From positions 186,001 through 250,000 of the forward strand of contig NZ_JACSDK010000001.1 in NCBI RefSeq assembly GCF_014925385.1: a stretch of 64,000 bases of DNA. Direction: 5' to 3'. Numbering within the stretch: the stretch's first letter is position 1; the number at the start of each line of letters is the position of its first letter. Under the pieces are notes generated by a model that was not told where the DNA came from, ran no database searches, and saw nothing but the letters and a program-made list of their open reading frames with translations. The translations under genes were made by a program, and so were the position numbers. Positions 47,005-63,213 of the stretch are shown one piece after another. The stretch is from Pelagibius marinus. GTDB lineage: Bacteria; Pseudomonadota; Alphaproteobacteria; Kiloniellales; Kiloniellaceae.

Positions 47005-47102
47005 GGCCGCCGCCGGAAGTTGTCAGCCGCCGTTGTCTCGCCCCGTTGTCACCCCGGGCGATACGTGATAGCCAAGCCGCCTCGCGATCAAAGGAGCCGG
47101 AT

Positions 47103-47615
47103 ATGGCCGAAGAAGCCGCTCAGCCGCAGCTGACCATCAACACCCAGTACGTGAAGGATCACTCCTTCGAGAACCCCAATGCGCCGGGCATCTACGGCAG
47201 CATGCGAAACGGCAAGCCGGACATCAACGTCAGCGTCGACGTGACGCCGACGCATCTGCAGGACCAGGTCTACGAGGTGGTGCTGTCGCTGCGCGCCGAG
47301 GCCAAGATCGGCGAGACCGCGGCCTTTCTGGTGGAACTGGACTACGCGGCGGTGGTCAGCCTGGGCGCCGACCTGACCGAGCAGCTGCGCGAGCACCTGA
47401 TCATGATCGAGGTGCCGCGCCACCTCTTCCCCTTCGCCCGCGCGATCCTGGCCGACGACACCCGCGACGGCGGCTTCCCGCCGCTGATGATGGGCCCGAT
47501 CGACTTCGCCCAGCTCTACATGAGCCGCACGCAGGGCAGGGCCGCCAGCGAAGGCGCCGCCGAAGAAACTTCCGGCGAAGAGAGCTCCGTCAACGGGGCC
47601 AACGGCCAGGGTTAA
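47103..47615 (+). CDS. secB: Protein-export chaperone SecB
   Basis: A 170-residue SecB. 'QLTINTQYVKDHSFENPNAPGIY' starts the fold, with 'YEVVLSLRAEAKI', 'AFLVELDYAAVVSLG' and the characteristic 'LFPFARAILADDTRDGGFPPLMMGPIDFAQLY'. It keeps preproteins unfolded for SecA; it works as a tetramer. The secB/dnaQ neighbours facing opposite ways are typical for alphaproteobacteria near the origin. GAGCCGGAT precedes the ATG. Confidence 0.98.
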   Translation: MAEEAAQPQLTINTQYVKDHSFENPNAPGIYGSMRNGKPDINVSVDVTPTHLQDQVYEVVLSLRAEAKIGETAAFLVELDYAAVVSLGADLTEQLREHLIMIEVPRHLFPFARAILADDTRDGGFPPLMMGPIDFAQLYMSRTQGRAASEGAAEETSGEESSVNGANGQG

Positions 47616-49837: not shown

Positions 49838-50475
49838 GACGGCAGGGCCTTGTTCAGCCTGAGGAAGTCGAGCAGCGGCAGCAGCGGCAGGCCCAGCACT
49901 GTGAAGAAGTCGCCCTCGACCTTGTTGAAGAGCTGCGCGCCCAGGCCCTCAAGCTCATAGCCGCCGACGCTGGCGGTGACCACCGGGCCCGCGGCCTCGA
50001 GGTAGGCGTCGATGAAGGCGTCGCTCAAAGCGCGCATGGTGAGCTGCGCCGCGGCGTTGTGGTGCCACATGCGGCTGCCGTTGCGCACCACGCAGACGGC
50101 GGTCCAAAGGGTGTGGGTCTTGCCGCTCAAGGCGCGCAGCTGAGCGGCGGCGTGATCGCGGTCCGGCGGCTTGTCGAACCAGACATCGTTGCAGGAAAGC
50201 ATCTGATCGGCGCCGATGACCAGCGCGCCGGAGTACTTCGCCGCGACGCGCTGCGCCTTCAGCTCGGCCAGGGTCTCGGCCACCTGGGCCGGAGTCGCGC
50301 CCTCGGCCTTCAGGGAAGCCTTTACGCCTTCCTCGTCCACCGCGGCGGCCTGGCAATGCATCTCCAGCCCGGCGGCCCGCAGCATCCGCGCGCGCGCGGC
50401 GCTGGCCGAGGCCAGCACCAGCGGCGGCGGCGCGGGGGCCATGAGGGCGCCCGGAAGTCCCGCTGCCTCGGCCAT
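49834..50475 (-). CDS. maf: Maf-like nucleotide pyrophosphatase
   Basis: A 213-residue Maf family nucleotide pyrophosphatase: 'LVLASASAARARMLRAAGL' replaces the usual SxSPRR with SASAAR, and 'LVIGADQMLSCNDVWFDKPPD' keeps the catalytic aspartate. 'EAAGPVVTASVGGYELEGLGAQLFNKVEGDFFTVLGLPLLPLLDFL' completes the fold. Maf enzymes remove modified nucleotides (dTTP/UTP-type or m7GTP-type); the subtype is uncertain. ATG overlaps the ppsR stop by one base. Confidence 0.92.
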   Translation of the reverse strand: MAEAAGLPGALMAPAPPPLVLASASAARARMLRAAGLEMHCQAAAVDEEGVKASLKAEGATPAQVAETLAELKAQRVAAKYSGALVIGADQMLSCNDVWFDKPPDRDHAAAQLRALSGKTHTLWTAVCVVRNGSRMWHHNAAAQLTMRALSDAFIDAYLEAAGPVVTASVGGYELEGLGAQLFNKVEGDFFTVLGLPLLPLLDFLRLNKALPS

Positions 50476-51296
50476 CACGCCTCCGCGCCGACGTGCTTGG
50501 CGTAGTAGTTCATGATGGTCGCCGCGGTTTCCTCGATCGAGCGGCGGGTGACGTCGATCAACGGCCAGCCGTGCTCGACGCAGAAGCGCCTGGCCTGGGC
50601 GATTTCCTGGCGCACGGCCTCCAGGTTCACGTAATCGGTTTCCTGGCGGTCGTCCGTCAGCATGCGCAGGCGGTTTTGGCGCACCTGCACCAGGCTGGCG
50701 GCGTCCTTGGTAAGACCGACGATGAGCGGCCCCTTGGCGCGCAGCAATTCCTCGGGCATGGGGCAGCCGGGCACCACCGGCACGTTGGCCGCCTTGATGC
50801 CTCGGTTGGCAAGGTACATGCAGGTCGGCGTCTTCGAGGTGCGCGACACGCCGACCAGGATGATGTCGGCCTTGTCGATGTCGCTGCAGTGCTGGCCGTC
50901 GTCGTGGGCCAGGGCGTAGGTCATGGCGTCCATGCGGCTGAAATATTCCGCATCGAGGACATGCTGCAGCCCCGGGGTGCCGCGGATCTCGACCCCGAAG
51001 TAATTGGCCAGGGCGTGGATCACCGGGTCCAGCACCGGAATGCAGGGCAGGCCCAGCGAGGCGCAGCAGGAGGTGAGCTGGTCGCGCAACTCACGGTTCA
51101 CCATGGTATAGAGCACCGGACCGGGATTGGACTCGATGCCCTGCAGCACCTTGGTCATCATCCCGCGGGTACGCACCAGGCTCCAGACATGCTCGATGGG
51201 CTCGACACCGCCGAACTGCACCAGGCAGGCGCGCGCCACGGAGTTGATGGTCTCGCCCGTCGCATCGGAGACCAGGTGCAGGTGATGGCTCGTCAT
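50475..51296 (-). CDS. ppsR: Pyruvate,phosphate dikinase regulatory protein
   Basis: A 273-residue bifunctional kinase/pyrophosphorylase of the DUF299 family that reversibly phosphorylates a regulatory Thr on PPDK or PEP synthase. P-loop 'ADIILVGVSRTSKTPTCMYLANRG' lies at about 150-172. 'HLVSDATGETINSVARA' opens the protein and 'DVTRRSIEETAATIMNYYAK' closes it. This is the homologue of the RP001-type gene flanking the origin in other alphaproteobacteria. It starts next to the non-coding origin candidate. Confidence 0.96.
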   Translation of the reverse strand: MTSHHLHLVSDATGETINSVARACLVQFGGVEPIEHVWSLVRTRGMMTKVLQGIESNPGPVLYTMVNRELRDQLTSCCASLGLPCIPVLDPVIHALANYFGVEIRGTPGLQHVLDAEYFSRMDAMTYALAHDDGQHCSDIDKADIILVGVSRTSKTPTCMYLANRGIKAANVPVVPGCPMPEELLRAKGPLIVGLTKDAASLVQVRQNRLRMLTDDRQETDYVNLEAVRQEIAQARRFCVEHGWPLIDVTRRSIEETAATIMNYYAKHVGAEA

Positions 51297-51815
51297 GCAG
51301 GCGACTCCGCCCGGCGGCGATCCCCGCCGCCGCACCGGAAGGGCTGTGCATGAATCGCCCCGACTGTGCGAATAACGGGGACAAGCCGCCCCTCGGCCTG
51401 CATCGAGAAAAAAGCCCTCACCTCAGCCTCGCAATGCTCCAGAACCTTCTTTCGTTCCGGACAGTTTCGCCCCACAGGCCGAACCGCTTCGGGATAGAAC
51501 ACCCGCCCCTCGACCTTTTCCCCGTTATCCCCTGCCTGCGGATTTGGCGCAAGGCGTGGGATCACCCTGGTTTTTACCACCCTTCGCCCACAGATAGAGG
51601 AGGCAAGAGCGCGTTTGCGGATGACTCGCGGGATAACCCGAAGGTCATCGGCAATCCCCAGGATTCACAGGGATCAACAGCAATCACAAAAAGCTTTTTA
51701 ATAATTCTTTTAGGAAGAAGGGGGGTTTGCTCGGCCCACGGAAAAGTCCATCTTGTCGGACCTTGAGACCTCCTGAAACGTTCAGGCAGCGACCCGGAAA
51801 ACAGATCTTCCTTCG
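51297..51815. other. Candidate chromosomal replication origin (oriC)
   Basis: A 519-base gap between the divergent ppsR and hemE, with no convincing gene. The same junction holds the origin in Caulobacter crescentus and Rickettsia. Features seen: TTATCC cores at 51525-51530 (TTATCCCCT) and on the minus strand within 51631-51638. A 7/9 DnaA-box match TTCACA lies in GGATTCACA (51661-51669). The AT-rich unwinding-like tract at 51683-51712 contains the 12-bp palindrome AAAAAGCTTTTT (51688-51699) and TTAA-N7-TTTA (51698-51712), close to the CtrA consensus. No perfect TTATCCACA box is present, so box assignments are tentative; synteny carries most weight. Confidence 0.7.
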
Positions 51816-52895
51816 ATGACCCAGAGCCCCGAAACCCTTCCGCTTCCCGAAAAAGCCATGCTGCGCGCCCTGAAGGGCGAGACCCTGGCACGCCCGCCGG
51901 TGTGGCTGATGCGCCAGGCCGGGCGCTACCTGCCGGAGTATCGGGAACTGCGGGCCCGGGCCGAGGGCTTTCTCGATCTCTGCTACACGCCGGACTACGC
52001 GGTGGAGGTGACCCTGCAGCCGATCCGTCGCTACGGCTTCGATGCGGCGATCCTGTTCTCCGACATCCTGGTGGTGCCCCACGCCCTGGGCCAGAAGGTG
52101 TGGTTCGAGGAAGGCGTCGGGCCGCGGCTCGAGGCGCTGGAAAGGGCTGAGGACCTCGACCGGCTGGACCGCGCCGCCCTGCACGATCGCCTGGCCCCGG
52201 TCTATGAGACCGTCGGACGTCTGAGCCGGGAACTGCCGGCCGAGACCACGCTGATCGGCTTTGCCGGAGCGCCCTGGACCGTCGCCAGCTACATGCTGGA
52301 AGGCGGGTCCAGCAAGGACTTCGCCGCCGGCAAGCGTTGGGCCTATGGCGATCCCGCGGCCATGCAGCGGCTCATCGACCTGCTGGTGGCCGCCACCGGC
52401 GACTACCTCATCGCCCAGATCGATGCCGGTGCCGAGGCGTTGCAGATCTTTGATTCCTGGGCCGGGGTCTGGCCGGAGGCGCATCTGCGGCGCTGGTGCC
52501 TGGAGCCGGCCAAGGCGCTGGTGAAGCGCTTGAAGACCGAGCGGCCGGGCGTGCCGGTGATCCTCTTTCCGCGCGGCGCCGGGGTGCTGTACGAGACCTA
52601 TGCCGCCGAGAGCGGCGCCGACGCTCTGGGCCTGGACACCACTGTGCCGCTGGCCTGGGCGCGCGAAACGCTGCAGTCGAAGGTCTGTCTGCAGGGCAAT
52701 CTCGATCCTCTTCTGCTGGTCGCCGGCGGCGAGAGCCTGCGCAGCGGCGTCGACACGATCCTGCGGGAGCTTGGCGGCGGCCCCTTCGTTTTCAACCTGG
52801 GCCACGGCATCGTGCCGCAGACGCCGCCGGAGCATGTCGCCCGGTTGATGGAGCAGCTTCACGCCTGGCCTGGCGCGGGAGGCGGTGCGGGATGA
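51816..52895 (+). CDS. hemE: Uroporphyrinogen decarboxylase
   Basis: A 359-residue HemE converting uroporphyrinogen III to coproporphyrinogen III. '[21 protein letters not shown]' carries the invariant Arg/Gln region, '[16 protein letters not shown]' the catalytic aspartate, and '[22 protein letters not shown]' the second signature. First gene right of the origin candidate. Its stop overlaps the hemH start (ATGA). Confidence 0.98.
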
Positions 52896-63197: not shown

Positions 63198-63213
63198 TGT
63201 TTCACGTGAAACA
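63198..63213. promoter_or_regulatory. parS centromere site (ParB-binding palindrome)
   Basis: TGTTTCACGTGAAACA is a perfect 16-bp palindrome, extended by A/T to 18 bp, and matches the near-universal bacterial parS consensus TGTTNCACGTGAAACA. It lies between mnmE and mnmG, the usual alphaproteobacterial vicinity of parA/parB and the origin. No second copy was seen in this window. Confidence 0.9.

Follow-up and report, generated by a model that had tools for sequence, protein, structure and literature searches.

Predicted replication origin with degenerate DnaA-box-like words between ppsR and hemE in a Kiloniellaceae-like alphaproteobacterium

It is very probable that a Kiloniellaceae-like alphaproteobacterium starts replication of its chromosome in the intergenic gap between the divergent ppsR and hemE genes of the DNA analysed here, where DnaA would act on an array of degenerate boxes. 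The window, namely the whole stretch of 64,000 nucleotides, corresponds to G000:C1:186001-250000 of a 5.44 Mb genome available as 35 contigs. The same assignment had been made in a preliminary description of the sequence, and it is favoured because of the synteny with the Caulobacter and Rickettsia origins, the conservation of the junction, the nearby parB/parS locus, the skew switches of relatives and the cluster of DnaA-box-like words in the gap, which also holds an AT-rich tract. That this junction is the origin in Caulobacter and Rickettsia agrees with passages of PMC1914354, which place both the experimentally identified origin of the former and that of the latter between hemE and COG1806. 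A likely origin is fixed for a poorly studied alphaproteobacterial lineage, on whose origin no title was found among the literature matches listed; a search for TTATCCACA alone would miss it.

The junction and its conservation

The coordinates previously given for the gap are correct, with the ppsR start at 51296 and that of hemE at 51816 (table 1). The description of most transcription as leaving the gap in both directions holds for maf, aroE, coaE and dnaQ, which read leftward, and for rho, which reads rightward (the identity of hemH and hemJ, also on the right, was assigned by eye from the list of open reading frames), but not for an open reading frame at approximately 47090-47615, read by eye as secB, which points toward the gap. 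The gap is also long for its surroundings, as had been remarked, with 4-bp overlaps at ppsR/maf and at maf/aroE, and its G+C content of 58% is within the lowest 3.6% of 519-bp windows over 840 kb of its own contig. Several features of alphaproteobacterial hemE/COG1806 origins are found, namely the position between divergent COG1806 (ppsR) and hemE, an A+T content above that of the genome with an AT-rich tract, and a nearby chromosomal parB/parS locus. The gap occupies the usual place for an origin of this class, but its box set is that of a variant rather than of a typical member, since the strict DnaA box words (TTATNCACA or TGATCCACA) are found neither in the gap nor in any of the eight gaps of the genus.

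Table 1. Coordinates of the gap, its border genes and the elements discussed in the text (positions in the window).
Feature	Position	Strand	Basis or remark
Intergenic gap, predicted oriC	51297..51815	.	divergent ppsR/hemE junction
ppsR (COG1806/DUF299; PEP synthase/PPDK regulator), left border	50475..51296	-	NF003742, 324 bits; PRK05339 family
hemE (uroporphyrinogen decarboxylase), right border	51816..52895	+	TIGR01464, 421 bits
Site Z, DnaA-box candidate TCATGCACA	51345..51353	-	CTGTG-N-ATG in 8/8, full TCATNCACA in 7/8 genus gaps
Site A, TTGTCCCC	51377..51384	-	aligned with perfect TTATCCACA of g2 and g5; TTNTCCCC in 5/8 genus gaps
Site B, abutting tandem TTTTCCCCG-TTATCCCCT	51516..51533	+	TTNTCCCCGTTATCCC in 8/8 genus gaps
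TGATCCC word	51558..51564	-	common at that place to the window and G022 only
Site D, TCATCCGCA	51616..51624	-	exact in 4/8 genus gaps
TTATCCC word	51630..51636	-	lost in this form from most genus gaps
Site F, AATCCCCAG	51653..51661	+	ATCCCC in 8/8 genus gaps
Site G, TTCACAGGGATCAACA, adjoining the AT-rich tract	51664..51679	.	TCACAGGGA in 8/8 genus gaps
AT-rich tract, candidate DNA unwinding element (holds the palindrome at 51688-51699)	51682..51711	.	composition count
Conserved GGAAGAAGGGGGGTTTGC between AT-rich tract and hemE	51713..51730	+	genus alignment
Perfect parS	63198..63213	.	C1:249198; a second copy lies outside the window at C1:251308

A divergent ppsR is found upstream of hemE in 93 of 104 hemE loci (L023-L126) of relatives chosen as the best 80 of 579 hemE matches, a choice by which near relatives are over-represented and the counts are not independent. 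Rhodospirillales bacterium BBD 1991-14, at 80% identity, and MAGs of the Kiloniellaceae are the best named among these matches, and the lineage name used here derives from them. The 104 loci derive from 108 scanned, four being parS loci without hemE; at least four of them repeat a contig, and those tagged OTHER in the junction scan have the same ppsR/hemE arrangement on the reverse strand. Where ppsR was not detected, the contig is cut within 250 bp of hemE in four cases (L036, L061, L113 and L124), and L046 ends 1.5 kb upstream of the gene, on a contig where L056 has ppsR 2.3 kb off, leaving as real exceptions six loci with upstream room but no ppsR match (L084, L093, L104, L111, L112 and L114). 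Reyranella soli has two hemE loci (L084 and L102), with the ppsR junction at L102 only. The contig of L114, whose hemE is 56% identical to that of the window, is labelled Nonomuraea aurantiaca, an actinomycete, and may reflect contamination. The ppsR-hemE distance of 2.3 kb in Rhodospirillales bacterium 47_12_T64 (L056 3652-6001) may correspond to an insertion in the origin gap or to a misassembly.

With L056 and the duplicates L047, L049 and L050 left out, 89 gaps were obtained from the best hemE matches (301-853 bp, median 419), their edges being set by tblastn, so that the hemE-side edge varies by a few codons. A further search of 58 genomes, from which the loci of five matches were taken, yielded no additional gap. 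Eight of the gaps belong to the genus of the window and vary from 491 to 579 bp; they represent fewer than eight independent lineages, since G017 and G020 are near each other.

DnaA-box-like words and the AT-rich tract

The earlier statement that the gap contains no perfect DnaA box was confirmed, and extended to copies of TTATCCACA or TGATCCACA with one mismatch, of which there are none. Perfect TTATCCACA is missing from all eight genus gaps and from the single g3 and single g4 gaps, and is present in 4/4 gaps of g2 and 8/8 gaps of g5, both sister genera (L056 was left out of these counts by group, perfect or with one mismatch, and L047, L049 and L050 were still in). Among the 89 gaps, 34 contain a perfect TTATCCACA and 55 do not; 70 contain it within one mismatch, and ten have nothing within one mismatch of either TTATCCACA or TGATCCACA, four of the ten belonging to this genus. 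Thus, the expression 'lacking consensus boxes' used in the preliminary description is literally true, but conserved degenerate words are present and the lack of a perfect TTATCCACA is common.

Loss of TTATCCACA from the genome as a whole was ruled out, with 12 copies in the own genome versus 7 of the reversed control word. An altered specificity of DnaA is likewise unsupported as the cause of the missing boxes. In an alignment examined over the C-terminal 170 columns, 18 of 19 DnaA sequences of the own and sister genera share one and the same 24-residue DNA-binding signature (in G006 a T takes the place of the first S), and two residues ahead of it both Q and H are found, within genera as well as between them; since the signature is shared with the sister genera that keep TTATCCACA, a changed recognition helix is not the explanation. 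Some short proteins were also observed (L150-L155, from G001-G004, G025 and G016) whose similarity to DnaA is confined to its C-terminal DNA-binding part (profile about 340-436).

Several of the degenerate words of the gap are kept throughout the genus. The tandem TTNTCCCCG-TTATCCC is kept in 8/8 gaps, ATCCCC of site F lies exactly 12 bp before TCACAGGGA of site G in 8/8, and sites Z and B are separated by 170-172 bp in 8/8 despite the differences in gap length. Site A varies, being TTGTCCCC in three genus gaps, TTTTCCCC in two, TTTGCCCC in two and TTTTCCCA in one, and TTATCCCC in four other relatives of the family alignment. The TTATCC words noticed earlier are two (51525, plus strand, and 51631, minus strand), a number reached by 40 of 16,590 519-bp windows; the four copies of TKATCCC are equalled in 7 of the 16,590 windows (840 kb of the own contig). 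In the 840 kb of 5.44 Mb covered, dnaA included, a span of 519 bp with three copies of TKATCCC, or with three of TTNTCCCC, is found at this gap only.

In de novo word counts over the 89 gaps, TTATCCAC and TTATCCCC were the two top-ranking word families, present in 47 gaps (2 expected) and 40 gaps (3 expected), respectively. The former is present in 0/8 genus gaps and the latter in 7/8, as well as in 33 of the 81 non-genus gaps. In these 81 gaps TTATCCAC is approximately 190-fold and TTATCCCC approximately 90-fold denser than in the remaining sequence of those loci (for TTATCCCC, 1.09 versus 0.012 per kb). According to passages of PMC4285127, the Caulobacter W-box is TCCCCA, to which DnaA binding is very weak but detectable, and the Helicobacter pylori DnaA box is TCATTCACA. 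TTATCCCC resembles the W-box, which has one exact copy in the gap, within site F, and the H. pylori box resembles the word at site Z. From these words and from the enrichment, it is plausible that TTNTCCCC and TCATNCACA are DnaA sites. The same comparison suggests that W-box-like TTATCCCC, of the kind described for Caulobacter in the portions of PMC4285127 considered, is present in hemE-side gaps well beyond Caulobacter.

The 30-base AT-rich tract reported earlier is real, with 5 G+C, a count of 5 or fewer being found in 34 of 839,391 30-mers of 840 kb, its own included. In 82 of the 89 gaps, the own gap among them, the 30-mer richest in A+T falls within the 40% nearest to hemE. The 12-bp palindrome AAAAAGCTTTTT is present at 51688 as described, but it is not conserved in the genus alignment, even in G022, and was therefore rejected as a functional element. 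Beside site G, CAA-CNN-CAA was read by eye as a putative DnaA-trio, the general pattern being taken from a passage of PMC8287927. Between the tract and hemE, GGAAGAAG and CATCTT blocks (51713-51759) are conserved in the genus.

Segregation locus, GC skew and rival explanations

The own genome contains just two exact parS sites, both 11-14 kb to the right of the gap, and parB at C1:253067, 15 kb to its right. Of 13 genomes, eight have parB no more than 20 kb from hemE, and in the other five the two genes are on separate contigs. With one mismatch allowed, parS-like sites were sought in nine relatives and found within 20 kb of hemE, on the hemE contig, in six and on the parB contig in the remaining three. 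Each of the eight genus members was also noticed to have, outside the par locus, a single orphan parS with one mismatch (CGTTTCACGTGAAACA, or its reverse; own L129 1501-1516, G000:C16:116471; in G022, C1:2988180). It stands at the end of an AT-rich element that is conserved over some 75 bp, the 16-mer being present in seven of eight aligned rows (the G022 slice, L262, stops short of it), and, since in G022 it is close to where the sampled skew turns negative, it is possibly near the terminus.

The preliminary description expected the cumulative GC skew to reach its minimum at the gap. On the own contig a weak rise across the junction (at 237.5 kb) was found, with means of −0.0046 on the left and +0.0137 in the 200 kb on the right (p = 0.02 for 23 left versus 20 right 10-kb blocks; 0.004 with further right-hand blocks), but within the first 440 kb the minimum is at 174.6 kb, 63 kb left of the gap, and the best split at 220 kb (t = 3.0). 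Skew switches are also seen in relatives, as estimated from sampled rather than continuous blocks in G022, G025 and G036. In G022, the closest relative with a contig of 3.56 Mb, on which hemE is at 692 kb, nine of ten blocks up to 650 kb are negative (exception at 490 kb, +0.0044), nine of ten between 680 and 1280 kb are positive (exception at 980 kb, −0.0007), and later blocks are positive to 3.0 Mb except that at 1490 kb (−0.0096). The means of 0-690 kb and 690 kb-1.4 Mb are −0.0137 and +0.0174, respectively (p = 6e-7); the free circular split begins at 420 kb instead of 690 kb (t = 9.0, against a maximum of 7.7 in 30 permutations), so that the resolution of the skew is coarse. For G036 the best split falls at the start of the block that contains hemE (t = 10.3, against a maximum of 7.8 in 100 permutations). 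It does so in G025 as well, where t = 4.3 does not reach the maximum of 7.7 in 100 permutations and is not significant.

The position of the own-contig skew minimum would suit a gap that is simply a long divergent promoter or leader region for ppsR and hemE, the origin being elsewhere, e.g. near the par locus or near dnaA, which is on the same contig about 136 kb to the left; the conserved blocks extending close to hemE would also be accounted for. Such an arrangement is nevertheless unlikely. The two G022 blocks sampled between dnaA and 650 kb keep the left-arm skew, which has flipped by the 680-700 kb block; TTATCCAC and TTATCCCC are strongly enriched in the non-genus gaps, and no second cluster of three TKATCCC or TTNTCCCC was found in the 840 kb that include dnaA. 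A coding role for the gap, whether for a small protein or for a structured RNA, is scarcely credible. In both the window and G022 a single forward frame stays open over 155 codons, and in G018 the frame of the same number is uninterrupted from end to end (163 codons), but between the window and G022 the frame protein is 68% identical and the DNA 81%, i.e. the protein is not better kept than the DNA. The other six genus members match only parts of the frame (best match of each, 31%-53% identical), with one-base indels and frame changes, and no Rfam match was obtained at E up to 1.

A Caulobacter-style origin repressed by CtrA was also considered, with TTAA-N7-TTTA as the functional site, and is judged very improbable. 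This CtrA-like word is present at 51698-51712 as had been described, but the strict site, TTAA-N7-TTAA, is found in 0/8 genus gaps. The 14 matches to the looser TTWW-N7-TTWW across six of the eight (1.7 expected) may arise from the AT-rich tract alone. In the 89 hemE-side gaps there are 16 strict sites in eight gaps, where 1.5 would be expected, so that CtrA sites do occur in some relatives, which does not wholly agree with the statement, in a passage of the review PMC4468827, that CtrA sites are not seen in other origins. An IHF site was sought as WATCAANNNNTTR, a pattern other than the WATCAN5WTR form given in PMC1914354, and was found in 0/8 genus gaps. Strict words in the genus give no support to an involvement of CtrA or IHF.

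Some findings also speak against the origin reading. Site A is TTNTCCCC in just five of the eight genus gaps, dnaA is some 136 kb distant, and the in silico criterion based on the numbers of DnaA, CtrA and IHF sites, as set out in passages of PMC1914354, fails for the gap as written, because no box at zero or one mismatch, no strict CtrA site and no match to the IHF pattern used are found in it.

Proposed mechanism and comparison with known origins

If the gap is the origin, the predicted DnaA array would comprise TCATNCACA near ppsR, the TTNTCCCC sites and the tandem TTTTCCCCG-TTATCCCCT in the middle of the gap, and the ATCCCC and TCACAGGGATCA elements beside the AT-rich tract. DnaA-ATP would assemble cooperatively on it from Z to G, and site G would anchor the filament that opens the tract on the hemE side, allowing the helicase to be loaded; the replicated origin would then be moved by ParB bound at parS, 11-14 kb rightward. 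We infer DnaA binding, unwinding, initiation and segregation at the gap. Site A is W-box-like in this genus (TTNTCCCC in 5/8 gaps) or more degenerate (3/8), and the TTATCCACA that g2 and g5 keep there would be a high-affinity anchor. It may be, although we hold this with less than even confidence, that the origin of the genus runs on low-affinity DnaA sites alone; as the signature helix of DnaA is unchanged, initiation would then depend on cooperative assembly of DnaA-ATP alone.

Among known systems, the Caulobacter crescentus Cori is similar in its border genes, AT-rich region, linked par operon and weak TCCCCA W-box words, as gathered from passages of PMC1914354, PMC4468827 and PMC4285127. 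It differs in that the G-box TGATCCACA is lacking in the own gap and in 8/8 genus gaps, and in that the own gap has neither a strict CtrA site nor a match to the IHF pattern used. The likeness to the Rickettsia prowazekii origin is one of published position only, at the hemE/COG1806 junction (PMC1914354, in part), the words of the own gap being of the TTNTCCCC and TCATNCACA types. The predicted origin of Neorickettsia sennetsu, as presented in passages of PMC1914354, is also on the side of hemE and was predicted without a TTATNCACA DnaA box, but its border partner has changed, whereas the gap described here keeps the ancestral pair. Within the same family, the origins of g2 and g5 have an alignable gap, the AT-rich tract and sites A, B, F and G, and differ in carrying TTATCCACA at site A, where the own genus has TTGTCCCC, TTTTCCCC, TTTGCCCC or TTTTCCCA. 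Sister genera that share the DnaA signature helix but differ in having a strong box would serve as a natural test of whether any high-affinity DnaA box is required at an origin.
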